Part shown: in pieces, positions 1,452 to 51,211 of the stretch | Layout of the letters: every line of letters begins with the position of its first letter | Position numbering within the stretch: the first letter of the stretch is position 1 | Origin: a virus | Virus record (IMG/VR): IMGVR_UViG_3300032242_001941 | Location: 47,612 to 111,611 of that record | DNA: 64,000 bases | Reading direction: 5' to 3' (one strand) | Translations under genes and position numbers: made by a program | The notes under the pieces: model-generated | What the model saw: only the letters and a program-made list of their open reading frames with translations | What the model was told of the DNA's origin: nothing | Database searches by the model: none

Positions 1452-3092
<1,641 letters not shown>

Positions 3093-3108: not shown

Positions 3109-3142
3109 ATAGTGTGGATGCCGATGGTCGGGTCCACACTAT
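3109..3142 (+). ncRNA. 5'-end hairpin, copy B, in the hsp20 leader
   Basis: The outer stem ATAGTGTGGA/TCCACACTAT is ten perfect pairs. Inside lie an unpaired TG, the inner stem CCGA/TCGG with loop TGG, and an unpaired G. With a start near 3114 the transcript would keep at least the last five outer pairs. A role in protecting the mRNA end, or a thermosensor role for a heat-shock gene, is inference. It does not hide the Shine-Dalgarno site at 3161-3166. Confidence 0.65.
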
Positions 3143-3173
3143 ATGTCACTTGCTTAATTTAAAGGAGAAAACA

Positions 3174-3620
3174 ATGACAAGACTCACAACTCTGGACCTT
3201 AGTCCATTCTATCGTAACTCAATCGGTGTAGACAAATTATTTGATCGTATGATGCATCAAATTGATACAGCGGCCGCATCAACTACAAACTATCCACCTT
3301 ACAACATTGTAAAAACTGGCGAGAACACCTACGAAATTCAAGTAGCCGTTGCTGGATTTACCGAAGGTGAAGTTACTGTAAACGTCAATGAAGGTCAATT
3401 AATCATCTCAGGTGAAAAGCTGTCTACAGATTTGCCCGAAGGACACATATATGAACACCAAGGCATCAGTGCTCGTCGTTTTATACGCACATTTACCTTG
3501 GCCGACTATGTAGAAGTAACCGATGCTCAAAGTCAGGATGGTATTCTGACTGTTAGCTTAGAGCGTCAAGTTCCTGAGGCACTTCTGCCGAAGACTATTG
3601 CGATCACTTACACAAAATAG
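3174..3620 (+). CDS. Small heat-shock protein, Hsp20/IbpA type
   Basis: The protein is 148 residues and resembles IbpA: N-terminal LDLSPFYRNSIGVDKLFDRM, then YPPYNI, an alpha-crystallin domain from about residue 40 to 130 with EIQVAVAGF and the closing GILTVSLERQVPE. Small heat-shock proteins hold unfolding proteins for refolding by chaperones. Hsp20 genes are frequent in T4-like cyanophages and pelagiphages. ATG 3174 has AAAGGAG eight bases upstream and matches the start of the family. The leader carries a late promoter and a strong hairpin. Confidence 0.93.
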   Translation: MTRLTTLDLSPFYRNSIGVDKLFDRMMHQIDTAAASTTNYPPYNIVKTGENTYEIQVAVAGFTEGEVTVNVNEGQLIISGEKLSTDLPEGHIYEHQGISARRFIRTFTLADYVEVTDAQSQDGILTVSLERQVPEALLPKTIAITYTK

Positions 3621-4800: not shown

Positions 4801-5151
4801 ATGAACATAATATTTAAAACCAATGCAACAAATATAGATGAAAAATATACAGTTTTAGACTTAGATACCTTTAGTTTACCTGACGGATCTTTACATACTG
4901 CCTGTTGTGTAGTTGAAAACATACCCGTTGCTGAATTTCCAATAATCACCCGGTTAAAAGAATTACACGTTAATCTTATAAGTAATTATGGTAAACGCAA
5001 TTGGAACTATTGCGAACAGGCCATTGAGCAACTTATGGGCAAATGGGGAGGCGAAGTAGACTCATTTTATCAAGAGTTAAACGCCCGTATACAAAAACTT
5101 AAAACCCAAAATTTAGACGATTCCTGGAGCCCTGTTATACCAAAAGCCTAA
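4801..5151 (+). CDS. Hypothetical protein, 116 residues
   Basis: ATG 4801 follows AAGGA at a suitable distance. The protein is soluble-looking, with an N-terminal strand-rich part and a helical C-terminal half containing NWNYCEQAIEQLMGKWGGE. I do not recognise a family. It is transcribed divergently from the metallophosphoesterase. Confidence 0.65.
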   Translation: MNIIFKTNATNIDEKYTVLDLDTFSLPDGSLHTACCVVENIPVAEFPIITRLKELHVNLISNYGKRNWNYCEQAIEQLMGKWGGEVDSFYQELNARIQKLKTQNLDDSWSPVIPKA

Positions 5152-5164
5152 ACAACAATCTTAA

Positions 5165-5172
5165 GATAAATA
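5165..5172 (+). promoter_or_regulatory. Candidate late promoter box GATAAATA
   Basis: GATAAATA is one base off the T4 consensus, 38 bases before the first gene of the small membrane-protein cluster. The expected start is near 5178, followed by AAAAAAGGAG at 5194-5203. Confidence 0.5.
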
Positions 5173-5209
5173 CCCACATAATAATAAGACTCTAAAAAAG
5201 GAGCTGGGT

Positions 5210-5491
5210 ATGAATGAAGTTTTTAAGATCATTGGAGATCTAGGATTTCCAGTAGCAGCCGCACTTGCAGGCGGTTATTTTGTATATCTCACAATCAAAC
5301 TGTTATTAGCTGGCGTACTGTCAGCTGTTAAACAGATGGCTGGAATTATCACAGCCTTAGACAATCGTGTTAAAACTATGAATCACGACGTTATCCGCAT
5401 TGATACCGTTGTGAGTAATGCTTTGGGCTTACGCCCAGACGTAGAGCGCATAAGCCGCGCAGACGGTAAAAACGATGCAAGGAGAGACTGA
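5210..5491 (+). CDS. Small membrane protein, holin-like
   Basis: The 93-residue product has one hydrophobic segment at about residues 12-36 (LGFPVAAALAGGYFVYLTIK) followed by a helical, charged tail with VKTMNHDVIRIDTVV. The layout matches the gene at 6054-6338, which shares the GFP motif and a similar helical tail. Such N-anchored proteins resemble BhlA-type phage holins; that role is inference. It overlaps the next gene as TGATG. Confidence 0.6.
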   Translation: MNEVFKIIGDLGFPVAAALAGGYFVYLTIKLLLAGVLSAVKQMAGIITALDNRVKTMNHDVIRIDTVVSNALGLRPDVERISRADGKNDARRD

Positions 5492-5757
5492 TGTGGACTC
5501 GTGAAGAACGTCGTTGGGCAATAATGAATCGCAAAGAGTATATTGAACGTAATATGGCTATTTGTGATGAAGAAATTAAAACAAGAAAACTTCAAAAGTT
5601 TCTAGGAGCTAAAACAATGGATTTTGATATTGAATATTTGGTCATACGCTTGCATGACATAGCCAGAGAAGTAGAACAACGTATTGGATTTGGTGAATTA
5701 AGCAAAGACATTCGCAAGTGCGCTGATCGTTTAAGTAATATCAATAAGCCCGTATAA
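5491..5757 (+). CDS. Hypothetical protein in holin-like cluster
   Basis: An 88-residue, highly charged and helical protein with no membrane segment. ATG 5491 overlaps the previous stop by one base; an in-frame ATG at 5524 is an alternative. The stop overlaps the next start by one base (TAATG). The family is unknown. Confidence 0.65.
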   Translation: MWTREERRWAIMNRKEYIERNMAICDEEIKTRKLQKFLGAKTMDFDIEYLVIRLHDIAREVEQRIGFGELSKDIRKCADRLSNINKPV

Positions 5758-5951
5758 TGAAATACTACGACTACGAATGGGATTTAGAACCTAATAGAAT
5801 TTTATTAGATTCAGAACTTAACGTAAATGCACTAGGTTGGCAAACCGGCGACTATTTCAAAGTTTCTACTGTCAATGGTCGTGCTATGTTAGTCAAAGTA
5901 GATCCGTTAGAAAAATTCTTAAGAGATGGAGTTAGCAATGAAAAAACATAA
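5757..5951 (+). CDS. Hypothetical phage protein, 64 residues
   Basis: The protein begins MKYYDYEWDLEPNRILLD and contains GDYFKV, a pattern I associate with short conserved proteins of T4-like phages, without a known function. Its start overlaps the previous stop and its last 14 bases overlap the small membrane protein at 5938. Confidence 0.65.
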   Translation: MKYYDYEWDLEPNRILLDSELNVNALGWQTGDYFKVSTVNGRAMLVKVDPLEKFLRDGVSNEKT

Positions 5952-6054
5952 TCCATATAAATTACCACCGCATCAAATTTGGACTGATTGGGATCTAGCC
6001 AAGTTTGCTCTGATAGCATTTGTGGTCGGCATTGCGGTAGGAGCAATATTATAA
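5938..6054 (+). CDS. 38-residue single-pass membrane protein
   Basis: ATG 5938 opens a 38-codon frame that ends in a hydrophobic segment (ALIAFVVGIAVGAIL, residues 24-38) after a polar N-terminus with PPHQIWTDWDLAKF. It overlaps the genes on both sides, ending TAATG with the holin-like gene at 6054. Its size and place fit a short holin or antiholin partner; this is inference. Confidence 0.55.
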   Translation: MKKHNPYKLPPHQIWTDWDLAKFALIAFVVGIAVGAIL

Positions 6055-6338
6055 TGGGCGGCCTAGCAGAAATTATCAGCAAGTACGGATTCCCAATGGT
6101 CATGGCAGTTGGCATGGGCTTTATCATACGCATGGTCTGGGAATGGTGTACCAAGGAAATCAAACCAGTTATCAATGATGCCAACGCAGTTCTTATTGGT
6201 CTTATTGATCGCATCCGTATGTTGGACAATGATTTGATTCGGTTGAATCAAAAAGTTAATACTGTGTTGCATCTACGTGGCAAAAGTATTGATCACGAGC
6301 GTGTAGAAGCTGAACAACAGATCAACGAAAAATCGTAA
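6054..6338 (+). CDS. Holin-like membrane protein
   Basis: The 94-residue protein has a hydrophobic N-terminus (ISKYGFPMVMAVGMGFIIRM), a WEWCTKEIKPVI juxtamembrane segment and a long amphipathic helix. This is the layout of BhlA/UviB-like phage holins. ATG 6054 is chosen because it overlaps the preceding stop; the frame extends upstream only through that gene. Confidence 0.6.
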   Translation: MGGLAEIISKYGFPMVMAVGMGFIIRMVWEWCTKEIKPVINDANAVLIGLIDRIRMLDNDLIRLNQKVNTVLHLRGKSIDHERVEAEQQINEKS

Positions 6339-6391
6339 TACCGCCACTTAATATCTGTAAAAAACTATTAAATAATAGTAGGAGCTAGAGT

Positions 6392-6883
6392 ATGAAAAAA
6401 ATAATAATAATAACTCTCTTAGCTTCTGCGCCTGCGTTTGTCACGGCTGCAGAACTACAACACTATTTTAGTAGCCCGGCCTTTAGCGGCGTTGGATACA
6501 GTAGCCATGTCTTGACTTTACAACAGCTAGAAACTCAACAAAAAGAAAAAAATAAATTGGCCGCAGATGCTATTGCAGCCAAAGCAGCCGCAGATGCTGC
6601 AAATACTCCACAGGCTAGATTTTTAGCCAACATTGAAAGTAGAGTCTATGCTCAACTAGCCAAACAAATTACCGATAGTTTGTTTGGTACAGACGGTGTG
6701 CCTAGTTGTAAAGCAGTAAATCCTTACAGTCAGTGCGGATCTGTAAACATAGCGGGCAATGATATCACTTGGCGCCTGGGCGACCCAGCAAACGCCAGCG
6801 AAAAAGGCATGTTAGTAATCAACATTGCTGGTGCCACCGGCAACGTTCAAATGATGGTGCCATCTGGAACCTTTGCTTTTTAA
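6392..6883 (+). CDS. csgF: Curli assembly protein CsgF
   Basis: The 163-residue protein has a cleavable signal peptide (residues 1 to about 20, ending VTAAE). The mature N-terminus reads LQHYFSSPAFSG, equivalent to the F-x-NPxFGG segment of CsgF that plugs the CsgG pore. A coiled Ala-rich insert follows, then a conserved C-terminal beta region (DITWRLGD, MLVINIAG). CsgF anchors and nucleates curli at the cell surface. It is nine bases upstream of csgG. The sequence is divergent, but order and motifs support the call. csgF/csgG pairs are known from some marine T4-like phages (recalled, not checked). Confidence 0.82.
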   Translation: MKKIIIITLLASAPAFVTAAELQHYFSSPAFSGVGYSSHVLTLQQLETQQKEKNKLAADAIAAKAAADAANTPQARFLANIESRVYAQLAKQITDSLFGTDGVPSCKAVNPYSQCGSVNIAGNDITWRLGDPANASEKGMLVINIAGATGNVQMMVPSGTFAF

Positions 6884-6892
6884 GAAAAATAT

Positions 6893-7708
6893 ATGAAACA
6901 TACCGTAATTTCCTTGCTTGCAATTGCTTTATTAGGTGGATGTGCCATTGGCAGTGGTATCCGCGAACAGCTGACAAACAAGCAGTTTGACGAACCAGTG
7001 ATAGAAAAAAGTATTGTATTAGCACAGCCAAAAAATCAACTAGCACCACCGGCAGATGGACCTATTGCTGTGGCTGTGTACGGATTCCAAGATAAAACAG
7101 GGCAACGCAAAAGTCAACTTGCTGTGGCCAGTTTAAGCAGTGCTGTAACACAAGGCGGCGAAAGTTACTTGATTAAAGCCTTACAAGATGTAGGCGATGG
7201 CCGCTGGTTCACTGTGGTAGAAAGAGTTGGGCTAGACAACCTAATCAAAGAACGACAAATGATTCGCCAGGGTCGCGAACAGTATCAAGGACGTGATGCT
7301 AAACCGTTACCGCCAATGGTATTTGCCGGAATGATTGTGGAAGGTGCTATTGTGGGCTATGATTCAAATACTCTTACAGGTGGCGCCGGTATGCGTATCT
7401 TTGGTATTGGCGGCCAAACACAGTATCAAAGTGATACAGTCACGATTAGTTTGAGAACAGTCAGTGTTCTTACTGGAGAAGTATTGACCACAGTTACAGT
7501 TACAAAAACTGTGTTGAGTTACATGGATAAATTTACAGTATTGAGATTTATCAATGACGGAACTAACTCCTTAGAATCAGAAATAGGAGGTAGTATAAAC
7601 GAAAGTATTAACCGAGCAACAAGCGCAGCCATACAAGCCGCAGTGGTTGATACGATTCGTGAAGGTGCTCGTAAAGGACACTGGAATTTTAAAGAAGTAA
7701 AAAAATAA
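6893..7708 (+). CDS. csgG: Curli export channel lipoprotein CsgG
   Basis: At 271 residues it is close to the E. coli length. A lipoprotein signal with lipobox LLGGC places the lipidated Cys near residue 17. Conserved segments include VAVYGFQDKTGQ, ESYLIKALQD, RWFTVVERVGLDNLIKER, FAGMIVEGAIVGYDSN, FGIGGQTQYQ and TKTVLSY, covering the periplasmic and beta-barrel-forming regions. CsgG forms a nonameric outer-membrane pore for curlin export. The neighbours csgF and a curlin-repeat protein make a self-contained export set on a phage genome. Confidence 0.95.
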   Translation: MKHTVISLLAIALLGGCAIGSGIREQLTNKQFDEPVIEKSIVLAQPKNQLAPPADGPIAVAVYGFQDKTGQRKSQLAVASLSSAVTQGGESYLIKALQDVGDGRWFTVVERVGLDNLIKERQMIRQGREQYQGRDAKPLPPMVFAGMIVEGAIVGYDSNTLTGGAGMRIFGIGGQTQYQSDTVTISLRTVSVLTGEVLTTVTVTKTVLSYMDKFTVLRFINDGTNSLESEIGGSINESINRATSAAIQAAVVDTIREGARKGHWNFKEVKK

Positions 7709-7758
7709 CAATAAAAAATAGGAGCTTAGATTGGGGATAACCCAACTTTGAACAAACA

Positions 7759-8556
7759 ATGAAAACAAACAAATTAAATACAGCCTATACAATATTTGCT
7801 GTGTTGGCATTTGTTTCATTAAATGCAGCCGCACAAAATGCGGCCACTGGACCTAACAAGGTTTACCTGGAACAGATTGGTAGCACTAATACCATCACAG
7901 TTCAACAGGTTGGCGGCACTAACAATGTTGGCGGCACCGGCGGCAATGTAACAGTAGATACCAATGGCGTAACTACTTTTACACCCGATGCCCCTGGCAG
8001 TACTAACTATGCTACAATCACGGGTGCTAACAATGTGGTTGGACTTAGTCAGACTGGTAGTAACAACACGGCTCAGTACAATATCACTGGCAGTAACAAT
8101 ACCTATAACAGTACTGTGGCTGGCAATAACAATCAAACTCGTTTGATCATGGGTGGTGCCAATGCCACAGCCAATTACAATACTGTAACAGAAACAGTTA
8201 CTGGCAGTAATAACTTGATATTACAAAACGTTCAAGGCAGTAATGTGGTCAGTGGTATTGGAATTGTTGGCAGTACCAACCAAGTGACTACTGATTTATT
8301 AAGTAACCGCGGAAGTTCTAATATACAAATCACTGGCAGTACCAACGTGATCAATGCTGAACAGACGGGCGGTGCTGGTGCCAATGGGCACATATTGATT
8401 AATAATGTGATAGGCGACTATAACAGTATTACCACCCAGCAACAGGGTTCTATTGATACAACAATCGATCTTAAGACCACAGGTAGTTTCAATACCGTCA
8501 CGGTACGGTCCAGCGACTCGGCCATTGTCAATTCAAGAACTGCTGTAGCAAGGTAA
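7759..8556 (+). CDS. Curlin-repeat secreted protein (CsgA/CsgB-like)
   Basis: A signal peptide (to about residue 25, ending NAAAQN) is followed by some 200 residues of Asn/Gly/Ser/Thr/Gln-rich repeats of about ten or eleven residues, such as LEQIGSTNTITVQQVGGTNN and TGSNN. This is the Q-x-G-x-x-N pattern of curlin repeats that stack into an amyloid beta-solenoid. It is the expected substrate of the CsgG/CsgF channel just upstream. Its start is preceded by a short hairpin (TTGGG/CCCAA), and AGGAG lies unusually far upstream. Whether it forms fibres on infected cells or is a virion component is unknown. Confidence 0.85.
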   Translation: MKTNKLNTAYTIFAVLAFVSLNAAAQNAATGPNKVYLEQIGSTNTITVQQVGGTNNVGGTGGNVTVDTNGVTTFTPDAPGSTNYATITGANNVVGLSQTGSNNTAQYNITGSNNTYNSTVAGNNNQTRLIMGGANATANYNTVTETVTGSNNLILQNVQGSNVVSGIGIVGSTNQVTTDLLSNRGSSNIQITGSTNVINAEQTGGAGANGHILINNVIGDYNSITTQQQGSIDTTIDLKTTGSFNTVTVRSSDSAIVNSRTAVAR

Positions 8557-8557
8557 T

Positions 8558-9658
8558 ATGCAGAAACTAATCACAGCCCTTTGCGTTATGGTTGTATGTA
8601 ACGCCTGGGCTGGCATTGGCACGGTTTCAGAACACAAAGGTACAGCCTGCGAGATCACACGAGACAAAAATAAATTATCTGGGCACAAAGATGCCATAGT
8701 TGAAAGTATGGACACATATACCACCGGTGCATGTGTCAGCAACATTACATTTAAAGATGACACAAAGGTTCGCATAACTGAGAACAGTCGCTTGCTTATT
8801 GATGATTTTGTATTTGATCCCAAGGCCAGCGATGCCGGCAAACTGGCTCTTAAAGTGAGCGCAGGCACTGTGCGCTATGCGTCGGGCCAGATTGCTAAAA
8901 ATAGTCCACAAAAAGTAAATATTCAAACGCCAACAGCCACAGTGGCAGTTCGTGGTACTGATTTTACCATGACCGTTGACGAAGCTGGACAAAGTCTGAT
9001 AATGTTAATACCTAGTTGTAAAGATATCAACGAAGTTAAACAATATGAATTAGAAGAGAATAGATGCAAAGTTGGACGTATCGAAGTAAGCACTCTTGCT
9101 GGGTCAGTGGTCTTAGACCAAGCATTTGAAGCAACCTATGTTATGAGTGCTCTAATGGCACCAACTCCACCTATTGTTGTCAACACTGTTGAAAGTAAAA
9201 TTAATAATAATCTTATTATTGTTAAACCTGTTGAAGTTCAACGAGCTATTAAAGAAGCAACAAAAACCAAACAAGAACAAGAACTTGACGACATCGAAGC
9301 CGACGCGGCTCGACGACTAGCACAGGCTGTGGCCAAATCCGCCGAAGCCATTGAGGAAGCTCGTGTTTCCAAGTTTGTTGACCTTGCCAAACGGTCTGGG
9401 TGTAATTCTGCTACCAGTGTCTGTGTGATATGGGATAGACCGTCTGAAACAGAAATGATCAGTCGTGGACGTGGTATTGCATTCCGCCTAACAGAAAATG
9501 AGCATTATGCCGAAGTCAAGACACTTGGGTATGTATCCAACACCACAATTAACATTACACATAATGATATGCCATCATCGATCACTATCGGCGATGGCTC
9601 TCCTGGTGGAACTATTGTAACTATTAAACAAAACAATGGAGTATTAAAGTCTAAGTAG
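8558..9658 (+). CDS. FecR-domain secreted protein
   Basis: The 366-residue protein starts with a signal peptide (to about residue 19). A FecR domain covers about residues 50-150 and includes DDTKVRITENSRLLID, LKVSAGTVRYASG and the hallmark TPTATVAVRGTDF. An Ala/Glu-rich coiled region follows around residues 225-275, then a C-terminal beta-rich part. FecR domains act in periplasmic signalling or surface assembly. It follows the curlin gene by one base and precedes a CHASE2 cyclase; FecR plus CHASE2-cyclase pairs are common in bacteria. The terminator at 9754 ends this operon. Confidence 0.85.
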   Translation: MQKLITALCVMVVCNAWAGIGTVSEHKGTACEITRDKNKLSGHKDAIVESMDTYTTGACVSNITFKDDTKVRITENSRLLIDDFVFDPKASDAGKLALKVSAGTVRYASGQIAKNSPQKVNIQTPTATVAVRGTDFTMTVDEAGQSLIMLIPSCKDINEVKQYELEENRCKVGRIEVSTLAGSVVLDQAFEATYVMSALMAPTPPIVVNTVESKINNNLIIVKPVEVQRAIKEATKTKQEQELDDIEADAARRLAQAVAKSAEAIEEARVSKFVDLAKRSGCNSATSVCVIWDRPSETEMISRGRGIAFRLTENEHYAEVKTLGYVSNTTINITHNDMPSSITIGDGSPGGTIVTIKQNNGVLKSK

Positions 9659-9753
9659 CCCAAGAGTGTATACGTAGTTTATTTTTTAATGGGCAGTACT
9701 TAAATACTATGCAGGCATATTATAACTATAACAAGCCGGCTACGCAGGATTTT

Positions 9754-9784
9754 ATACCCACTTTACAGTGGGTATTTTTTTTGT
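9754..9784 (+). terminator. Rho-independent terminator after the curli/FecR operon
   Basis: The stem ATACCCAC/GTGGGTAT (eight perfect pairs, six-base loop) is followed directly by a run of nine or ten T. It separates the csgF-csgG-curlin-fecR unit from the cyclase unit. Between 9659 and 9753 I see no gene. Confidence 0.9.
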
Positions 9785-9811
9785 TAAATACTAGTCATAC
9801 CGGAGATACAA

Positions 9812-10036
9812 ATGACTGACTTTTTTAAACCCGATCCAAGAATTACTGACCCTGCACTAAGAGATTTAGAAAAAAAAGTGCATTGGCTTATGTCACAAAT
9901 TTATGCCGGAAGCTGGGCGCAGATGTGTAGTGATGCAGGGCTCGATTGTAATACCGTGTATAATACATTTCCAGATAATTTTGATATAAACAATATTAGA
10001 CCAGACGCAGAAGAAGTTCAAAATAACGATGCTTAA
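9812..10036 (+). CDS. Hypothetical protein upstream of the cyclase
   Basis: A 74-residue acidic protein beginning MTDFFKPDPRITDPALRDLEK, with an aromatic helical middle. It overlaps the start of the cyclase by eight bases, so translational coupling is likely. CGGAG just upstream serves as ribosome site. Family unknown. Confidence 0.65.
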   Translation: MTDFFKPDPRITDPALRDLEKKVHWLMSQIYAGSWAQMCSDAGLDCNTVYNTFPDNFDINNIRPDAEEVQNNDA

Positions 10037-12080
10037 AAAAATCTTAACAAGTCCGTGGACTGCTCTATTGACGCTGGCCTTAGTAGTGGGGTTACGGGTA
10101 GCAGACCCTACATTTGTTGAAAGCGTTCGTCTACGCTATTTTGATACGCTTATAACTAGTAAGCCTGCAGAAGTTATAGGTGTTAGTGTTGTAAACATTG
10201 ATGAAAAGGCATTAGAAAAATATGGACAATTTCCTTTCTCCCGCGATCAGTACGCTGCCATCGTCCGGGATTTATATCGCCGCAATGCTGGTCTTGTTGT
10301 TTTTAACATCCTTACTCCTGATCGCGATCGCATGGGGCATGATGCAGAATACATCCAAGCCCTTCGCCAGTATCCAACAATTCTCCCTAACATTGGGTCG
10401 CAAACTTCTCGTAATACTCCAAAAGCTCCTGGCTCAGTAGTCATAGGCCCATTTGGTCTAGATGCCTTTGTTACCTATCCTGGTATTATTGCTAACCAAC
10501 CTGCTATTGAAAATGCCGCAGTCGGTGTTGGTATTGTAAATACCTTGCCAGAAGTAGACGGTGTCGTTCGTCGCATGCCAATGGTAGTAGCATATGATGG
10601 CAAGTTGTACCCGAGCCTTGCTATGGAAACACTTCGAGTAGCTGGCGCCGACACCACTTTCCAAGTGAAGATCAACGAAACAGGCGTTGAGAAAATGCGC
10701 ATTCCAAAGTTTGGAGCTATTACAACAGATTCATTGAGCCGTATTTGGGTTGACTGGTCACTGGTACCAAGTAAATATGGTTTAACGGACTTGCCAAAAG
10801 ATTTTGAAGGTGAAATTGTTATTGTTGGTGTATCAGCACAAGGACTTGCAAACCCTGTAGCTACAAGCCTTGGCGAAATGCTACCACAAGATTTACAAGC
10901 AAGTGTATTGGGTACTGTAATTGCCAATAGAGATCGTCCGGCAATTACTCGCCCAGATTGGGCCGATGGTGCAGAAATTGTATTTGTCGTTACGGCAGGT
11001 ATTGTATTGTTATTTTTATCAAGGTGGGTTTATGTTGGACTTTGTTCATCTGTTTTTATACTCGGCGGGAGTATATTGCTGTCTCGTTGGGCTTATGGAA
11101 ATTACGCTTGGCTTGTGGACGCGACTATTCCAGTCGTTGGCCTTGGCCTTGTGCTTCTTCATGCTTATGGTGTTAAGTTCGTAAGTGAGTTTTTACAAAA
11201 GCAAGCAATCAAGAAACAGTTTGCTGGCTACTGCTCCAAAGAAGTAGTGGAGCTATTGCAAAAAGATCCAGACCTAATCAAACGCGGTGTGCGCAAAGAT
11301 GTCAGTGTCATGTTCTCAGACCTACGTGGCTTTACTCCTATCGGTGAACACTATGGTGATGATGTTGCTGGACTTGGAAAATATATGAACGGTTATATGG
11401 ATAGCATTAGTTGTCCTATTCTAGATAACAAAGGTATGATTATTAAGTATGTAGGTGATGCATCGATGCACATACACGGCGCTCCTATTGAAGATCCTAA
11501 TCACGCACATACTATTGTTAAGGTAGGACTTGAGATGTTAGATGCTGTGGATGAATACACTAAACTAATGGAAGCACAAGGATTACCTCCTGCCGCAATG
11601 GGTTGGGGTTGTAACTCAGGTATTGGCTTTATTGGTGAAATGGGAAGCACAGATAGACACAGCTATGACATCTTAGGTGACATGGTTTCAACAGCTGCAC
11701 GACTAGAAGCACGTTGTAAGGCCTATGGTGTGTTATGTATTATTGGTGCTGAAACATACAATAGAACTCGAGACGATTTCTTTTACTTGTTACTAGACAA
11801 CTTGCAACCAAAAGGCAAAACAGTAGCAGACTTAATCTATACAGTATTACGTACTAAAGGTGTAGACTACAGTAAAGATAAGGCACAACACGAAAAAATG
11901 CATGACTTGTACCGAGCTAAAAAGTTTGATGAAGCCGCCGCTATGTGTACTAAAATGAAAGGCACCTTTGGCGGGCAGATGGACAAGTACTACAAGATAT
12001 GGATTGAACGTTGCGAGTTTATGAAAGAACAAAATTTACCAGATAACTGGAATGGCGAATTTGTGGCACACGAAAAATAG
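10029..12080 (+). CDS. CHASE2-domain class III adenylate/guanylate cyclase
   Basis: The 683-residue protein has an N-terminal membrane helix (about 9-25), an extracytoplasmic CHASE2 sensor domain (about 30-300), a cluster of membrane helices (about 315-390), and a class III cyclase domain (about 420-620). The two metal-binding aspartates are visible in FSDLRGF (D431) and YVGDAS (D477). The usual GDxVN motif reads GDMVS (S554), so the transition-state Asn is replaced by Ser, seen in some relatives but worth checking. It would make cAMP or cGMP in response to a periplasmic signal, perhaps from the FecR protein upstream. Confidence 0.9.
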   Translation: MLKKILTSPWTALLTLALVVGLRVADPTFVESVRLRYFDTLITSKPAEVIGVSVVNIDEKALEKYGQFPFSRDQYAAIVRDLYRRNAGLVVFNILTPDRDRMGHDAEYIQALRQYPTILPNIGSQTSRNTPKAPGSVVIGPFGLDAFVTYPGIIANQPAIENAAVGVGIVNTLPEVDGVVRRMPMVVAYDGKLYPSLAMETLRVAGADTTFQVKINETGVEKMRIPKFGAITTDSLSRIWVDWSLVPSKYGLTDLPKDFEGEIVIVGVSAQGLANPVATSLGEMLPQDLQASVLGTVIANRDRPAITRPDWADGAEIVFVVTAGIVLLFLSRWVYVGLCSSVFILGGSILLSRWAYGNYAWLVDATIPVVGLGLVLLHAYGVKFVSEFLQKQAIKKQFAGYCSKEVVELLQKDPDLIKRGVRKDVSVMFSDLRGFTPIGEHYGDDVAGLGKYMNGYMDSISCPILDNKGMIIKYVGDASMHIHGAPIEDPNHAHTIVKVGLEMLDAVDEYTKLMEAQGLPPAAMGWGCNSGIGFIGEMGSTDRHSYDILGDMVSTAARLEARCKAYGVLCIIGAETYNRTRDDFFYLLLDNLQPKGKTVADLIYTVLRTKGVDYSKDKAQHEKMHDLYRAKKFDEAAAMCTKMKGTFGGQMDKYYKIWIERCEFMKEQNLPDNWNGEFVAHEK

Positions 12081-12132
12081 CCCTATAGTTAAACTTTAGA
12101 GGGGTTGTAAAAAGGTCATAATTAATGTTTAT

Positions 12133-12657
12133 ATGACCCGCACTATTCACAAATATCAATTACATCCATTTTGGGATGATGAATACAAACATTTATCCTA
12201 TGTTCATGAATCATTTAATGATCCTGAATTAACTAACACTTGGTTGGCCCAGGGTTATCCTGATCAATTTACCGGCGACATGTGTGATATGCGCAGTCCA
12301 CAACCCACGTGGAATCAACGATTTGTGGACATCTTTCGAGGGCAAGGGTGGCGAGACGTTGGTACCAGTTATTATCGAATGAATACTGGTACAGTATTAC
12401 CTACTCACAGTGACTTATACCTAAAATACATCGAACTTTTTAACTTACGAGGTCGCGAACATACCATACGCCGTGCTATAATATTTTTAGAAGATTGGCA
12501 ACCGGGCCACTATGCTGAATATCGAAATATTGCCTATGTGAATTGGCGAGCCGGTGCCACAATTGAATGGACATATGATACTCCACACATGGCAGCTAAT
12601 TTAGGATTAACTCCAAGATACACTTTACAAATAACAGGACACATAGATGGTCAATAG
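12133..12657 (+). CDS. Putative 2OG-Fe(II) oxygenase, Asp-hydroxylase type
   Basis: The 174-residue protein shows the spaced metal and cosubstrate ligands of a double-stranded beta-helix oxygenase: H92-x-D94 in PTHSD, H152 in DTPHMAANLG and R162 in PRYTLQITG. This resembles aspartyl/asparaginyl beta-hydroxylases. It overlaps the amidinotransferase gene by 11 bases, so the two may modify the same substrate. The overall fold and ligand order are clear; the substrate is unknown. Confidence 0.72.
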   Translation: MTRTIHKYQLHPFWDDEYKHLSYVHESFNDPELTNTWLAQGYPDQFTGDMCDMRSPQPTWNQRFVDIFRGQGWRDVGTSYYRMNTGTVLPTHSDLYLKYIELFNLRGREHTIRRAIIFLEDWQPGHYAEYRNIAYVNWRAGATIEWTYDTPHMAANLGLTPRYTLQITGHIDGQ

Positions 12658-13570
12658 TCGCAATGAATGGGATCCGTTAGAAGCTATTATTGTAGGTAGT
12701 GCTACCAATGCTAATTGGCCAATGACTGATCCAGTGTTTGCTGAAGAAGCTAGGAATAGCCTGTGGACCAAAACACCGGCACCCGGTGGCCCAGTGCCGC
12801 AGTTTATCGTTGATGAAGCTAATCGCGAATTAGACATCTTGTCAGAAACCCTAGTTCGATATGGCGCTACAGTTTATCGTCCTCGACCAATGGATTTTGT
12901 TAAACGCCAAGGCATGTACAACTATTGTCCAAGAGATCGACTACTAGTGGCCGGCGATACTGTAGTTGACTGCAACATGATGTATCCGTGTCGCAATCAG
13001 GAAATTGAAAATTATTATAGATTACTTGCAGATGCTTGTAACACATATACTATGCCTAGAGACCAAGATATGACCCTGGATGCCGCAAACATTTGTCGAC
13101 TTGGAGATACTTGGTTATTTTTACAATCAGCATCGGGTAGTATTTCTGCGTACTATTGGTTAAAGTCAAAATTCCCTAAAATTACAATTGAGCTGTGTAA
13201 CTTTTACGCAGGTGTCCATATTGATTCTACTATTACTCCTTTGCGTGAAGGACTAGTCATGTTAAATGCCGGACGTGTTACTGAAGATAACTGTCCACAA
13301 GCATTTCAAGATTGGGAAAAAATTTGGGTCACAGAAAACATGATTGTAGCACAAGACTTTTATCAATATCCTTATGCGTCAAAATGGATAGCTATGAATA
13401 TGTTGGTCTTGGATCCAGAAACTGTAATCATAGATGCCGCACAAACAGAGCTAATTACTATACTGAAGTCCCGAGGAATTGATTCAATTCCCTTGACACT
13501 AAGCCATAGTAGAACACTAGGCGGCGGATTTCATTGTGTAACCTTGGATACTCGTAGACGTCATGCATAA
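12647..13570 (+). CDS. Glycine/inosamine amidinotransferase family enzyme
   Basis: The 307-residue protein matches the arginine:glycine amidinotransferase family. Visible are LDAANI with a catalytic acid, VHIDSTITPLREGLVML with His191, SKWIAMNMLVLD, and LGGGFHCVTLDTRRR with the nucleophile Cys297. The enzyme moves an amidino group from arginine to an amine acceptor such as glycine or an aminocyclitol. The N-terminal half is shorter than in vertebrate AGAT. It overlaps the oxygenase before it and the unknown gene after it, forming a three-gene cassette. Confidence 0.88.
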   Translation: MVNSRNEWDPLEAIIVGSATNANWPMTDPVFAEEARNSLWTKTPAPGGPVPQFIVDEANRELDILSETLVRYGATVYRPRPMDFVKRQGMYNYCPRDRLLVAGDTVVDCNMMYPCRNQEIENYYRLLADACNTYTMPRDQDMTLDAANICRLGDTWLFLQSASGSISAYYWLKSKFPKITIELCNFYAGVHIDSTITPLREGLVMLNAGRVTEDNCPQAFQDWEKIWVTENMIVAQDFYQYPYASKWIAMNMLVLDPETVIIDAAQTELITILKSRGIDSIPLTLSHSRTLGGGFHCVTLDTRRRHA

Positions 13571-14163: not shown

Positions 14164-14469
14164 ATGACTAAGAAAACTGGCAATTATACTGCTCCTGACA
14201 AATCAGACTTGCATAGATGGTATGTTTATACACATACCGATCCGGCAACTGGAGAAATTGTTTATGTAGGCGAAGGTACTGGTCAGCGATTTTCAGCCGT
14301 TAACACTCGAGCAAGCGACCATTCTTGGTTTCTTAAAGAAGTAATACATGACAAACGGCTAGACTGTTTTCAGATTGTTGAATCACGGTTAACTAAAGAA
14401 GAAGCAAGAGCACTAGAGTATCAACTAATTACCAAATATAAACCAAAATTTAATAAAGCGATGAAATGA
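14164..14469 (+). CDS. GIY-YIG nuclease-like protein
   Basis: The 101-residue product has a degenerate GIY-YIG signature: WYVYTH near residue 19, YVGEGTGQR near 34 with the catalytic Arg, and a conserved Glu in ARALEYQLI near 85. Small single-domain members of this fold act in DNA repair or recombination. It overlaps the UV endonuclease gene by four bases (ATGA). ATG 14164 is preferred over TTG 14146 because the latter lies in the promoter. Confidence 0.8.
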   Translation: MTKKTGNYTAPDKSDLHRWYVYTHTDPATGEIVYVGEGTGQRFSAVNTRASDHSWFLKEVIHDKRLDCFQIVESRLTKEEARALEYQLITKYKPKFNKAMK

Positions 14470-15491
14470 TTAAACGTATTGGTTTTTGTTGCAAATGGCT
14501 CAATGATCCGTCTGAATGTGGCGGCATGAAGGTCAATGCAGTGGATCGGGACCTTAACGGGCGTTCAACTACCATGCGTTGGTTGCGTGAGCACCCTGCA
14601 GAAGCCGAACAGCGCCAGTGGGACATCATGAATCACAACACCGCTGCCGCTGTCAAGTTGATCGAGCGTGTGGCCACATTACCGCCTGAACGTCGCATGG
14701 TGAGGTTAGGCAGTGAAATGCTACAGGGCTATACTGAACCGTCATGGATTGACTGGTGGCAACAGACTGATGTGCAGAATCATTTGGAAAAGATTTTTGC
14801 TCCTATAGGCGAAACTGCTCGTAGATTGGATGTGCGACTGAGTTTTCATCCTGGACAGTTTTGTGTGTTGGCCAGTGAGAATCCTGGCATTGTGGGAAGA
14901 TCTATACAGGAGTTTGAATATCATGCAGATATGGCCAGGTGGATGGGTTATGGCAAATCATTTCAGGACTTTAAGATCAACGTCCACATATCGGGTAAAC
15001 GCGGTCCCGAAGGTTTACGAGACGCCTACAGCAAACTCTCACCCGAAGCCCGTAACTGTATTACTATTGAAAACGAAGAAAATTCTTGGGGGTTAAATGA
15101 TTGTCTTACCATTTCTGATATTGTGCCTGTTGTGCTCGATATTCATCATTACTGGATCCGTGAGGGAGCCTACATCCTACCTGGAGACGACCGTGTTAAA
15201 AGAGTTGTTGACAGTTGGCGCGGTGTTCGTCCTGCTATGCATTACAGTGTCAGCAGGGAAGATATACTTGTCGGACACAATGCCAACCAAGCACCTGACT
15301 ATCCGGCACTTCTGGTAGCGGGTTATAAGAAACAGAAACTAAGAGCACACTCAGACTTTTACTGGAATCAATCTGTAACTGACTGGGCCTTGAGTTTCTG
15401 GGAACAGTTTGATATACAGTGCGAGTCAAAGGGCAAGAACTTGGCCAGTGCTCAGGTCTATGCTCGTGCGGTAGAGTTGAATTTGGTTTAA
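14466..15491 (+). CDS. uvsE: UV damage endonuclease UvsE/UVDE
   Basis: This 341-residue TIM-barrel protein matches UVDE: RIGFCCK at the start, MVRLGSEM, LSFHPGQFCVL, FEYHADM, INVHISGKRG, ITIENEENSWGL and DIHHYWI. These carry the His, Glu and Asp residues that bind the metal cluster. It nicks DNA 5' of UV photoproducts. Its place behind a GIY-YIG protein suggests a small repair operon, a sensible trait for a phage in sunlit water. Confidence 0.92.
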   Translation: MIKRIGFCCKWLNDPSECGGMKVNAVDRDLNGRSTTMRWLREHPAEAEQRQWDIMNHNTAAAVKLIERVATLPPERRMVRLGSEMLQGYTEPSWIDWWQQTDVQNHLEKIFAPIGETARRLDVRLSFHPGQFCVLASENPGIVGRSIQEFEYHADMARWMGYGKSFQDFKINVHISGKRGPEGLRDAYSKLSPEARNCITIENEENSWGLNDCLTISDIVPVVLDIHHYWIREGAYILPGDDRVKRVVDSWRGVRPAMHYSVSREDILVGHNANQAPDYPALLVAGYKKQKLRAHSDFYWNQSVTDWALSFWEQFDIQCESKGKNLASAQVYARAVELNLV

Positions 15492-21680: not shown

Positions 21681-22268
21681 ATGCCAAACTTAGTACCCAT
21701 TGTAGTAGAACAAACCGCCAAGGGCGAAAGAAGTTATGATATATACAGTAGACTTCTGCGTGACCGTATTGTTATGCTGGACACAGATGTTAACGAACAT
21801 TCAGCTAGTTTAGTAGTGGCACAAATGCTGTTTTTAGAAAGTGAAGATCCAGATCGAGACATACTTTTTTACATAAATTCGCCAGGCGGTTCTGTAATTA
21901 GTGGACTTAGTATTCTTGACACCATGCAGTTTATCAAGTGTGATGTTAGCACCATTGTTATGGGTCAGGCCGCAAGTATGGGTAGCCTGTTGGCCAGTTC
22001 TGGCACCAAGGGAAAACGACTTATTTTACCCAGAGCTAGACATCTTATTCACCAGCCATTAGGCGGAGCCCAAGGCCAAGCATCTGATATGGAAATCCAA
22101 GTAAATGAAATTTTACGAATGAAAAAACAGCTCACTGAAATTTATGTTGCTACCACCGGCAAAAGTTATGAACAGCTGGAAAGAGATATGGACCGTGACA
22201 ATATAATGACAGCTGAAGAATCTATTGCCTATGGATTGGCCGATAAAATTGTGTCTAAAAGGGATTAA
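21681..22268 (+). CDS. clpP: ATP-dependent Clp protease proteolytic subunit ClpP
   Basis: The protein is 195 residues, normal for ClpP. The catalytic triad is visible: S99 in [11 protein letters not shown]124 in HLIHQPLGG and an Asp at 171-173 in [15 protein letters not shown] is the oxyanion strand. ATG 21681 follows GGAGA; the frame is open further upstream, but only across the divergent gene. With ClpX at the window start and ClpS, the phage could assemble its own Clp proteolytic machine. The stop overlaps the next start (TAATG). Confidence 0.95.
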
Positions 22269-23566
22269 TGACATTTGAAAAAACATTTTGTTCTAGCCCA
22301 TGGTTGCATATGCGAATCAACAACTCGGGCACTTACGAACCATGTAGATGGATGTCTAAACAGGGCAACACCCGAGTTGATTTTGCCAACAACATCCAAA
22401 CTGTATCACCTCTAACATATTTTCAAAAGAGTATGGCCGAGTTAAGAACTACCATGCTAGATGGTGGTACTCCCGACATGTGTAACGATTGTTATACCAT
22501 GGAACGGCATAGTAAAACCAGCGGACGTCAACGGCAATTGCTCAAAGTTGGTATCCAACAACAATATTTTGAAAAAAGTCTAGCCAGTTCTACCCTAAAG
22601 ACGTCATTTGATTACAGCAACAACAGTCAAGGACACACCAACAGGTCTGTGTCTGACTGGCAAATTGATCTTGGCAACTATTGCAACGGCGCTTGTGTGT
22701 TTTGCGATCCCGAAAACAGCAGTAGACTAGCAACAGAGTTTCAAAAAATTGGATTGATTGATCAGCTACCCCCTGCTGCCTGGTGCGATGATCCTGCGTT
22801 AGTTGATCGGTTCGTGCAGGCGTTGACTGCCAGTACAAATCTACAGTATCTGCATTTCCTTGGTGGCGAAACAGTAATCACTCCAGGATTTCGAACAATA
22901 TTAACTGCTTTAGTTGAAGCTGGTCTAGCCAAGAATGTAACCATTGGATTTACTACCAATTTAACTGTTTGGTCCGATGACATTGTTGAACTATTAAAAC
23001 AATTTCAACAGGTGAACTTGGGCATGAGCATAGAAACCTTAACACCGGTCAATGACTATGTTCGTTACCCAAGTAAACAAGCACAGACTCGAGAGTTATT
23101 GGACCGATGGATAACTCTGGGAAAACAGCAAGACTGGCTAATACAACTTAGAATTACTCCTACCTGTCTAACTGTTCATGAATTACACACTGTCTATGAT
23201 TATGCCTGGCAAAACAATCTCTCTGTAGAGAGTTGTAATTTTCTTGACGAGCCTAAGTTTTTCCGTATTGCGGTGTTGCCGCTGGAATATAGAACCAAGG
23301 TAATTGAAACTCTGGAACAATGGATTCAGGCACATCAGTCTACAGAAACGCAACAGATCATCAACACTAGAGATCCCAATGTGGCACGAAAACAAATTGT
23401 GCAGGATGCACAAAGCTATTTGAATTATCTAAAATCTGTCGCAGACGAAAGCAATAGATTGCCCGATCTTGTGGCTTACTTAAAGCGATTAGAAAATAAT
23501 CGTGGCAATAGTATTTTAACTTATCTACCTCAATATGAAGAATTATTCAGATCTGCAGGATATTGA
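22268..23566 (+). CDS. Radical SAM protein, twitch/SPASM type (first of three)
   Basis: The 432-residue protein has an N-terminal Cys cluster (CSSPWLHMRINNSG, CNDCY), then the radical SAM motif CNGACVFC (C-x3-C-x2-C) near residue 139 and LHFLGGETVITPG. Such twitch-domain proteins are common in T4-like phages and their reactions are unknown; peptide or cofactor modification is the general expectation. It is translationally coupled to clpP. Related proteins are at 36946 and 49829. Confidence 0.85.
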   Translation: MTFEKTFCSSPWLHMRINNSGTYEPCRWMSKQGNTRVDFANNIQTVSPLTYFQKSMAELRTTMLDGGTPDMCNDCYTMERHSKTSGRQRQLLKVGIQQQYFEKSLASSTLKTSFDYSNNSQGHTNRSVSDWQIDLGNYCNGACVFCDPENSSRLATEFQKIGLIDQLPPAAWCDDPALVDRFVQALTASTNLQYLHFLGGETVITPGFRTILTALVEAGLAKNVTIGFTTNLTVWSDDIVELLKQFQQVNLGMSIETLTPVNDYVRYPSKQAQTRELLDRWITLGKQQDWLIQLRITPTCLTVHELHTVYDYAWQNNLSVESCNFLDEPKFFRIAVLPLEYRTKVIETLEQWIQAHQSTETQQIINTRDPNVARKQIVQDAQSYLNYLKSVADESNRLPDLVAYLKRLENNRGNSILTYLPQYEELFRSAGY

Positions 23567-47559: not shown

Positions 47560-47723
47560 TGAACATAGATCAAGCTCTAGCAGAAATTATTGCTTACAGT
47601 GTAGCCCATGGTGTAGATAGCCTGGGCGGCATTGAGTCGATGGTCCGGAATTACAAGTCATTACCGGTTGAGCAACGACTAGCAGTCGACGTGTTTATGT
47701 CCGAAACAAAGGAGGCAGTATAA
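47559..47723 (+). CDS. 54-residue helical protein
   Basis: ATG 47559 overlaps the previous stop by one base. MNIDQALAEIIAYSVAHGVD with ESMVRNYKSLPVEQRL; helical. Unknown. Confidence 0.6.
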   Translation: MNIDQALAEIIAYSVAHGVDSLGGIESMVRNYKSLPVEQRLAVDVFMSETKEAV

Positions 47724-49313: not shown

Positions 49314-49829
49314 ATGGACTCTACAAAAGATAAAACTGATTTAGATAAATTGCTTGAAGAACTTGGGGATACTATTACCATTAGTAATCTTGGAGCCGCG
49401 TCAGGCACACTCAGTAGTGGATACTCTACTGACACCGTTACTTTATCGCCACATGGAACTAGTATGTGGAATAATACAACTATTAGCGGTGGTGGGTACA
49501 CTTATCCTAACACTGTTGCGGCAACCGGCGGACCGTATACTATCAGCTCTGGAACAGGTATTACAAATCCATGGGTTACTCATGCTACTCCAAAAATCAA
49601 GCTAGATGGTGAAGGTGCTGACATTGAAGTCAACGGCTGGAGCCTAATTGACGCAATACAAAAAATTGAAGAGCGATTAAACATCCTACATCCCAATACC
49701 GAATTAGAAGCAGAATGGGAAGAACTTCGTGCGTTAGGCAACCAGTATCGCAAGTTAGAACAGCATATCAAAGACAAACAGGCTACTTGGGACAAGCTCA
49801 AAGCTATGCCTCCGCCGGCAATTGACTAA
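49314..49829 (+). CDS. Conserved-type phage protein with C-terminal coiled segment
   Basis: 171 residues. The first 100 are Gly/Ser/Thr-rich; the C-terminal part has IKLDGEGADIEVNGWSLIDA, RLNILHPNTELEAEWEELRA and YRKLEQHIKDKQATWDKLKA. I associate this C-terminal block with T4-like phages, where it is uncharacterised. No ribosome site; leaderless. Confidence 0.7.
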   Translation: MDSTKDKTDLDKLLEELGDTITISNLGAASGTLSSGYSTDTVTLSPHGTSMWNNTTISGGGYTYPNTVAATGGPYTISSGTGITNPWVTHATPKIKLDGEGADIEVNGWSLIDAIQKIEERLNILHPNTELEAEWEELRALGNQYRKLEQHIKDKQATWDKLKAMPPPAID

Positions 49830-51211
49830 TGTCTACTTGGCAAGAATTCTACAATGAAATACGAGATCCGTCATGGCCTGATTGTGCGACCGAAACAGAT
49901 TTTGAATTTCTTCCAGATAACATTAAACAAGAATGCATTGACGTATTTGGATATCAACCCAATCAATTTAAAAAAACGTCTAAGCTATCTAACAAAATAT
50001 TTCCAATTAAGTCTGAGACCGCTTGTCAATTAAAGTGGAACTGGAGCACAATATTCTTGACCACAGAAGAAACTGCCAGTTGTCATAGAACCAATCACCA
50101 TAAGTTTGATACCAACACATTTGATTTTCACAATACACCTAGTAAACTAGGCGATCGTCAACGCATGCTCAAAGGCAAATGGCCAGAAGTAGGCTGTGAC
50201 TATTGCCATGATATTGAACGTGCAGGTGGTCAAAGTGATCGCTTAACAAATTTAAATTTTCCAGGGATTCATGCACCCCTTGAGCTAGACAACAATCCCT
50301 TGGCCGTACATGTTACTCCTAGAATACTTGAAGTTTATTTTGATAACACTTGTAATTTAAAATGCCTGTACTGTGGACCACATTTTAGCAGTCTATGGGA
50401 CGCTGAAAATGTAAAATTTGGCCGTCCTGCATTTAATAAAAGCAAAAATATTGACTCAAACAAACAACGAATATTTGAATGGCTAAAAGTCAATGGAAAG
50501 CATTTAACTAATTTTAACATACTTGGTGGCGAGCCCTTGTATCAAAGCGAACTAGATGATTGTTTAGAACTGTTTGATCAATACCCTGCACCCGAACTTA
50601 AATTACAAATCTTTACTAATCTTAATTGTCGTCTAGCGCATCTACAGAAAACCGTGGAAAAAGTTTGTCGGCTAGTTGAGCAAGACAAGTTAAGAGAGTT
50701 TGAAATTACTGCCAGTTTAGACTGCTGGGGAGAACCACAAGAATATGTAAGATATCCATTAAATCTAGTGGAATGGGAAAAGAATTTTGAGTATCTGTTA
50801 GCCCAGGACTGGATTAATTTGATTATCAGTTCGACTGTAACGCCACTTACCGTAAAAACTCTACCCAACTTGCTTGAGAAGATACAGCTTTGGAACAAAC
50901 ACCGTACTGTACATCACTATCAAAACAGTGTAAATAGTCCTAGTTATATGTTTATTGATATATTTGGTGATATTTTTGCTGAGGATTTTAAACAAGCACT
51001 AGAATTTAAACCCAGTGCTACTCCAGAGCAACAGTCAAGCAAAAGCTATCTTGACGGCATTGCCCGGCAGTCCGGATCCAAAGGTCCAAATCTGACCGAA
51101 ATCAAAAACCTGTTTAACTTTTTAAATGAAATGGATCGTCGTAGATCAACCAATTGGCGTGATGTTTTTCCTTGGCTGGTTGGTGAATTCAACAAACATG
51201 GATTAGCTTGA
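49829..51211 (+). CDS. Radical SAM protein, twitch type (third of three)
   Basis: 460 residues. ILEVYFDNTCNLKCLYCGPH carries the C-x3-C-x2-C motif near residue 175, and FNILGGEPLYQSE the following strand. Cys pairs upstream (CHRTNHH, CDYCHD) may bind an auxiliary cluster. It shares the arrangement of the 22268 gene. The start overlaps the previous stop; the stop TGA forms part of the next promoter's -35 box. Confidence 0.85.
   Translation: MSTWQEFYNEIRDPSWPDCATETDFEFLPDNIKQECIDVFGYQPNQFKKTSKLSNKIFPIKSETACQLKWNWSTIFLTTEETASCHRTNHHKFDTNTFDFHNTPSKLGDRQRMLKGKWPEVGCDYCHDIERAGGQSDRLTNLNFPGIHAPLELDNNPLAVHVTPRILEVYFDNTCNLKCLYCGPHFSSLWDAENVKFGRPAFNKSKNIDSNKQRIFEWLKVNGKHLTNFNILGGEPLYQSELDDCLELFDQYPAPELKLQIFTNLNCRLAHLQKTVEKVCRLVEQDKLREFEITASLDCWGEPQEYVRYPLNLVEWEKNFEYLLAQDWINLIISSTVTPLTVKTLPNLLEKIQLWNKHRTVHHYQNSVNSPSYMFIDIFGDIFAEDFKQALEFKPSATPEQQSSKSYLDGIARQSGSKGPNLTEIKNLFNFLNEMDRRRSTNWRDVFPWLVGEFNKHGLA

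Follow-up and report, generated by a model that had tools for sequence, protein, structure and literature searches.

A phage-encoded curli-type gene module and the exchangeable N-terminal domains of a second curlin in its relatives

Why a phage should carry the export genes of a curli system together with a curlin-repeat protein, a FecR-domain protein and a nucleotidyl cyclase is the question raised by a locus in IMG/VR virus record IMGVR_UViG_3300032242_001941. The window analyzed here is the 64,000-nucleotide stretch at positions 47612–111611 of this 111,611-base record, which may itself be a fragment. An earlier note, made from the letters of the window alone, had placed csgF, csgG, curlin-repeat, FecR and CHASE2 class III cyclase genes in this order at 6392–12080 on the plus strand, and the coordinates, Pfam matches for four of the genes and a family profile for the curlin confirmed the observation. 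Adjacent CsgF, CsgG and curlin followed by FecR, the arrangement by which a phage type VIII secretion system (T8SS, curli) is recognized, is thus found in the window, with the FecR gene beside the CHASE2 cyclase. Two features had been overlooked: a pair of small membrane proteins upstream (TM1 and TM2), and the absence of a second curlin gene (curlin2). Our preferred answer, held with moderate confidence, is that the genes encode a phage T8SS that would place a fiber on the infected cell, bearing binding heads in most relatives, together with a FecR–cyclase sensor. The features are as follows (aa, amino acids); all Pfam matches lie above family cut-offs.

5210–5491, plus strand: TM1, 93 aa, hydrophobic N-terminal half, phrog_18771; accompanies the module in phages.
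6054–6338, plus strand: TM2, 94 aa from the first ATG, a paralog of TM1; the open frame runs from a TTG at 5988.
6392–6883, plus strand: csgF, 163 aa, Pfam PF10614 (E 3.1e-7), phrog_35372, signal-peptide-like N terminus.
6893–7708, plus strand: csgG, 271 aa, outer-membrane export pore, Pfam PF03783 (E 8.9e-49), lipobox-like with Cys17.
7759–8556, plus strand: curlin1, 265 aa, curlin-repeat protein by family profile, predicted beta-solenoid.
8558–9658, plus strand: FecR-domain protein, 366 aa, Pfam PF04773 (E 9.3e-11), signal-peptide-like N terminus, C-terminal segment conserved in the alignment.
9754–9775, plus strand: terminator-like hairpin and T tract between FecR and cyclase, at the site of curlin2 in most relatives.
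9812–10036, plus strand: 74-aa open reading frame (ORF), no Pfam or PHROG family, overlapping the cyclase start.
10029–12080, plus strand: CHASE2–class III nucleotidyl cyclase, 683 aa, CHASE2 (E 6.7e-36) and Guanylate_cyc (E 1.5e-13).

Linkage was assessed in four IMG/VR scans (the best 80 of 139, 80 of 194, 62 of 62 and 80 of 138 confirmed loci), with genes typed by profile hidden Markov models (HMMs); counts refer to distinct proteins with enough flanking sequence, the sets overlap, and all loci are relatives of the queries and not independent draws. Every FecR-anchored locus carried csgF, CsgG and a curlin between CsgG and FecR (48/48), and CsgG and FecR were each present on 46 of 47 cyclase-anchored phage loci, the remaining one (L387) having neither within 9 kb. 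Loci anchored on CsgG of the window type held csgF in 58/58, curlin in 50/50, FecR in 43/43 and the cyclase in 32/35, and those of the HTVC008M type in 58/58, 41/41, 26/26 and 10/11, respectively. The curlin is kept wherever the pore and its flank can be read, which fits curlin export better than a bare pore. This near-absolute linkage supports one conserved module; absence of curlin and cyclase beside csgFG in all relatives, which the earlier note had named as counting against its reading of a coordinated system, was not what we found. Its statement that csgF and csgG occur in marine T4-like phages also holds, the set being present in HTVC008M and Melnitz, both filed as Kyanoviridae. A tblastn search of 50,697 phage records with curlin1 returned nothing at E ≤ 0.01 and so missed the homologs present in these two phages; family profiles were therefore needed.

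The window CsgG matches E. coli CsgG structures with E 2.3e-45 over 217 residues. The lipobox that the earlier note had seen is represented by a lipobox-like N terminus whose Cys17 is invariant in 62 aligned sequences. At the pore loop, the Asn-Phe pair of E. coli CsgG, which we take to form the constriction, aligns with Ser-Leu. The window protein is short, whereas 55 of 178 distinct phage CsgG frames encode at least 340 aa, and SH3_3, a model of bacterial SH3 domains, was matched in 12 of 62 CsgG; these domains may anchor some of the pores to peptidoglycan. By eye, the CsgG of L005, L008, L018, L042 and L050 show a C-terminal Pro-rich linker and an SH3-like tail. For window CsgF, a sequence search of the PDB gave nothing at E ≤ 0.1. 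A simple hydropathy scan detected a hydrophobic N-terminal stretch in the csgF, csgG and FecR products. A csgG 42% identical to that of the window was also detected in OR851715 (L004), a 1.5-kb record labeled "Salmonella phage," which is perhaps bacterial DNA in a phage assembly.

Curlin1 has no Pfam match of its own in the window, whereas Curlin_rpt was matched in 53 of 56 aligned family members at E ≤ 0.1, and a profile of the family finds the solved curlin-repeat protein 8c50 (E 2.1e-10). The motif G[STADGN]xN occurs 15 times in curlin1; 2000 composition-preserving shuffles averaged 3.0 and never reached that count. The AlphaFold2 model is a regular run of strands (pLDDT 81.6, pTM 0.80), and VIA-align, applied to 128 of Foldseek's chains, matched it to beta-helix proteins with Z up to 16.1; this supports a predicted solenoid, names no relative, and involves Z scores of repeats that need care. 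The structure check that the earlier note had proposed for the curlin alone thus returned a beta-solenoid prediction.

Most relatives have a further gene at the site occupied in the window by the hairpin. Of 156 distinct FecR cases, 129 offer at least 700 bases of downstream sequence, the other 27 being too short to count; in 110 of the 129 a curlin-motif gene comes directly after FecR, as a rule with a 4-base overlap of the FecR stop. A universal curlin2 had been suggested by 62/62 loci (60 from IMG/VR, Melnitz and HTVC008M) and was rejected on this wider count. Curlin2 has an N terminus that resembles a signal peptide by eye and a conserved C-terminal domain with a ladder of Q, N and G. The N-terminal domain is not conserved. 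Among 50 distinct curlin2 proteins, F5/8C was matched in 21 cases, PA14 in 7 and Curlin_rpt in 30; a further set of 28 (A9), to which HTVC008M belongs and which shares two members with the first, gave PA14 in 5, Curlin_rpt in 20 and an F5/8C model once. Others have heads of no named family or are headless. A sugar-binding-type domain (F5/8C or PA14) is therefore fused to a curlin-repeat domain in part of the relatives. The L050 curlin2 model matches CBM32/F5-8C structures, several of them sugar-bound (best E 3.8e-7; 83 matches at E ≤ 0.001), with a pTM of only 0.39 that leaves the domain arrangement unsure; the structure alignments excluded GenBank loci, and alignment A7 took 30 curlin2. We regard the heads as probably sugar-binding.

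The two parts of curlin2 differ in conservation. The comparison covered 57 of the 109 distinct curlin2 proteins, each having CsgG on its locus and a CCG[GA] boundary no earlier than residue 90. C-domain score ratios exceeded 0.55 in 1209 of 1596 pairs, and among these C-similar pairs the N-domains were at background (<0.10) in 680 and clearly alike (>0.4) in 340. Loci L036 and L011, for example, have ratios of 0.94 for CsgG, 0.87 for the C-domain and 0.05 for the N-domain. As judged from sequence, a conserved curlin-repeat C-domain joined to unrelated N-domains is what one would expect of binding heads being swapped on an unchanging fiber part. No description of curlin2 binding heads, or of curli in jumbo phages, was found among the open-access matches listed or in the main texts searched, and a second fiber protein with interchangeable heads seems unreported. 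By eye, eight marine loci (L206, L208, L215, L216, L221, L241, L242 and L260) have a ThuA/GATase-like curlin2 N-domain, a family that the tally of the set of 28 does not name. Some loci carry further genes between curlin2 and the cyclase: a large secreted-looking protein of 959 aa (L018, 12495–15374) and, by eye, ATP-grasp-like and PstS-like phosphate-binding proteins (L012, 11852–12727; L030, 11234–12244).

What is shown here concerns gene content and order, their conservation, the composition and swapping of domains, and predicted folds; export, polymerization, adhesion and FecR–cyclase signaling are inferred, in a scheme that would run as follows. During infection, CsgG would form an outer-membrane pore capped by CsgF, and curlin1 would be exported through it and polymerize into a fiber on the infected cell. 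In most relatives, curlin2 would be exported in the same way, bearing an exchangeable, probably sugar-binding head, so that the fiber would be an adhesive surface, its specificity evolving as domains are swapped. FecR on the periplasmic side and the CHASE2 cyclase in the inner membrane would most likely be a sensory pair converting the state of the envelope or fiber into a cyclic nucleotide, and TM1 and TM2 would belong to the module. The window phage would represent a plain version, with no curlin2 in the record; since it and some relatives have none, the heads would not be needed for the role of that version. Tentatively, and as an idea that falls a little short of probable, curlin2 might co-assemble with curlin1 on the infected cell and display sugar-binding heads exchanged between phages like tail-fiber tips, making the dying cell a sticky, target-specific trap or decoy under FecR–cyclase control. 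The swapped heads provide a direct test between the published ideas of aggregation, superinfection block, lysis pore and uptake, because rapid change of binding specificity on an unchanging fiber core is predicted by a surface-binding role alone.

Several results weigh against this scheme. Curlin2 adjacent to FecR is absent by the motif test in 19 of 129 cases, although in four of these (L225, L228, L316 and L327) the HMM detects a curlin gene overlooked by the motif test. In the window record, there is no such ORF between FecR and cyclase, and a relative's curlin2 searched against the 111.6-kb record, possibly a fragment, matched curlin1 only (E 0.06). Foldseek alone found no match for the curlin1 model in the PDB at E ≤ 0.001, and the curlin1 N terminus, signal-peptide-like by eye, fell short of the simple hydropathy threshold. 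The window cyclase has Ser at position 554 in place of the usual transition-state Asn; of 21 aligned sequences, 15 have Ser at this position and 6 have Asn. No protein binding cyclic nucleotide monophosphate was found in 8 phage records, so host receptors would be the probable targets of any cyclic nucleotide made. The same 8 records, possibly fragments, yielded no CsgE over the cut-off with an E. coli control that was matched, the only hit being a single stretch below the threshold and interrupted by a stop; PMC7029224 describes CsgE as helpful and not essential. For Melnitz, neither cytograms nor transmission electron microscopy showed infected cells to clump, according to its authors (PMC9004378). 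The Ser at position 554, the lack of a receptor in the 8 records and the lack of clumping also count against parts of the earlier note's reading, in which amyloid would coat the infected cell, superinfection might be blocked and host cAMP levels would change.

A rival that we think unlikely comes from the same Melnitz paper (PMC9004378): the CsgGF pore would be repurposed as a gated pore timing lysis, with the curlins secondary and TM1/TM2 as holin-like partners. TM1 and TM2 are short paralogs with a hydrophobic N-terminal half, and they have weak matches to a holin PHROG (E 0.02–0.03); YvrJ, too, is weakly matched, in 10 of 33 with a best E of 0.004. They accompany the phage module closely: given room, they are on 53/53 HTVC008M-type CsgG loci and 55/55 cyclase loci (the latter not deduplicated). 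Among window-type CsgG loci the figure is only 18 of 57, but flanks of 8 kb there often stop short of the site downstream of the cyclase. By locus they lie upstream on the CsgG strand in 75, downstream on the opposite strand in 86, downstream on the same strand in 15 and upstream on the opposite strand in 3, with a further 18 loci having the cyclase alone (orientation counts not deduplicated). Among 50,697 phage records, TM1 was found in six, namely four Melnitz isolates and two HTVC008M copies, and these six hold csgG, as does one 1.5-kb fragment. TM1 and TM2 may correspond to what PMC9599517 calls histidine kinase; family searches gave no kinase match, and at 93 and 94 aa they are too short for a histidine kinase. 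What counts against a lysis pore, besides the weakness of the holin and YvrJ matches, is that the curlin between CsgG and FecR is never missing from FecR-anchored loci and curlin2 follows FecR in most: a purely lytic pore needs neither, nor heads.

It is also unlikely, in our judgment, that FecR and the cyclase are an independent signaling pair that merely neighbors the curli genes. In 21 aligned cyclases, Asp431, Lys473 and Arg558 are each present in 21/21 and Asp477 in 20/21 (one gap); we take Asp431 and Asp477 to bind metal, Lys473 to select the purine and Arg558 to be a transition-state residue. Together with Asp547, these residues fit a predicted ATP-type class III site. FecR and CHASE2-cyclase clusters are on record in Campylobacterota, accompanied by a phosphodiesterase and a TPR protein and with curli unmentioned in the available text of PMC9239204; as a precedent, they also speak for the sensory pair proposed above. 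The separation of FecR from the cyclase by the terminator-like site in the window, and a cyclase opposite in strand to the rest in L377, L388 and L412, would also suit an independent pair. However, those three loci keep the cyclase adjoining the module, and CsgG and FecR are missing from only one of the cyclase-anchored phage loci that have room. At the strong terminator that the earlier note had placed at the end of an operon, a terminator-like hairpin and T tract do follow FecR; the scan found 13 such sites versus 6.2 expected, so the call rests on shape and place.

Quite unlikely, too, is a pore that admits nutrients or macromolecules during infection while FecR and the cyclase sense uptake, an idea offered in PMC7029224 and PMC9599517. 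An open channel would be in keeping with the failure to find a CsgE gate over the cut-off, but the conserved curlins and swapped heads would go unexplained. That the curlins are virion fibers and not cell-surface fibers, which the likeness of head swapping to tail-fiber evolution (our own reading) might suggest, is very improbable, as T4-type virions are built in the cytoplasm, whereas the curlin genes are tied to an outer-membrane exporter, hydrophobic N-terminal stretches occur in csgF, csgG and FecR, and both curlins have signal-peptide-like N termini by eye, with curlin1 below the hydropathy threshold.

A phage T8SS of this kind is not confined to genomes the size of the known isolates. 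CsgG-bearing contigs reach at least 372,173 bases among the matches listed, and the T4-type capsid protein gp23, sought in 18 records, was strongly matched in the four largest (280–372 kb), weakly and above the cut-off in a fifth, and only at E ≤ 0.001 in two more; 11 had no match, including those of 163–202 kb and the window record, whose lack of gp23 may reflect its being a fragment. The module therefore reaches T4-type phages far larger than the 141–147 kb isolates.

The five-gene set also exists in a bacterium. A GTDB contig scan with the CsgG profile (the best 80 of 203 loci) revealed FecR on 9 loci and the cyclase on 7. Of the nine FecR loci, seven have TM1/TM2 and another lies on a contig of 3 kb; these look like phage DNA in metagenome-assembled genomes (MAGs). 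The ninth, in Hyphomonas sp. TMED17 (L088), lies on a 705-kb contig with bacterial flanks by eye; gp23 was found somewhere in 4 of 9 genomes tested (that of L088 and eight others) and not in that of L088. This 18.8-kb locus has csgF, csgG, curlin, FecR and CHASE2 cyclase in the order of the phage module and, unlike most phage relatives, lacks TM1/TM2 and a separate curlin2. An IQ-TREE phylogeny of 111 CsgG, from which two rows with too few columns were left out, split the phages and L088 from 67 bacterial sequences (100/99) and placed L088 inside on a long, unsure branch, so that donor and recipient are indistinguishable; 12 MAG loci, one of them (L092) without TM1/TM2, were labeled phage by us. 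With the FecR profile, 131 of 385 alphaproteobacterial genomes had a match at E ≤ 1e-10, the strongest being Hyphomonas at 1.7e-50 (profile positions 5–251 of 365) and the next 4.3e-35. In 29 other alphaproteobacterial FecR loci, no curlin was found beside FecR and one (L190) had a CHASE2 protein; at ∼3.7 kb or less, these do not extend far enough for CsgG to be assessed, as even the Hyphomonas locus shows none at that length. Phage-type curli genes with TM1/TM2 were also seen in MAGs named Bacteroidota, Synechococcus or Rhodobacteraceae (L086, L087, L089, L090, L095, L100, L116, L119, L122 and L123).

Tail-fiber and baseplate PHROGs elsewhere in the window fit a tailed phage. PHROG families exist for csgF, csgG, FecR and the cyclase (phrog_35372, 20175, 37870 and 35576), all listed as function unknown. 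A promoter scan was at background (24 found versus 23.0 expected), and TRF detected no DNA repeats within 5000–13000. The window also encodes adjoining chaperonin Cpn60 (1461–3092, E 2.8e-76) and Hsp20 (3114–3620, E 1e-14) genes, a UvdE-type UV endonuclease (14466–15491, E 1.3e-30) and two radical SAM proteins (22268–23566 and 49829–51211).

Curli genes in phages have been described before. In pelagimyophages, csgFG were reported by Zaragoza-Solas et al. 2020, who put forward "sibling capture" (PMC7029224), and Buchholz et al. 2022, proposing the lysis-timing pore for Melnitz, stated that csgA/B are missing (PMC9004378); the Melnitz GenBank record annotates two curlin-repeat proteins. Wittmers et al. 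2022 reported CsgF, CsgG, CsgA/B, FecR, often a second CsgA/B, and adenylate cyclase in podo- and myoviruses, with an upstream "histidine kinase" (PMC9599517). The five-gene module itself is therefore already known, and the earlier note's presentation of the curlin and cyclase beside csgFG as an addition is not supported. The E. coli curli operon has the CsgE gate, not found over the cut-off in the 8 phage records, and, unlike the window, is not known to include FecR or a cyclase; according to PMC9599517, canonical operons likewise lack these two genes. Compared with the pelagiphage T8SS module of Wittmers et al., the window has the same order, and CsgE was found in neither; where that module is described with an upstream histidine kinase and often a second curlin, the window has membrane proteins of 93 and 94 aa, possibly the same genes as that kinase, and no curlin2. 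PA14, lectin, adhesin, carbohydrate and discoidin are all unmentioned in the main text of PMC9599517. HTVC008M (KC465899) and Melnitz (MZ577097) share the gene order of the window with TM1-TM2 upstream, their cyclases being 35–43% and their CsgG 49–51% identical to those of the window over the aligned part; unlike the window, each has a curlin2, with a PA14-like head by eye in HTVC008M. To these known systems, the present analysis adds the adhesin-like curlin2, the membrane pair, the range into huge phages and the Hyphomonas locus.

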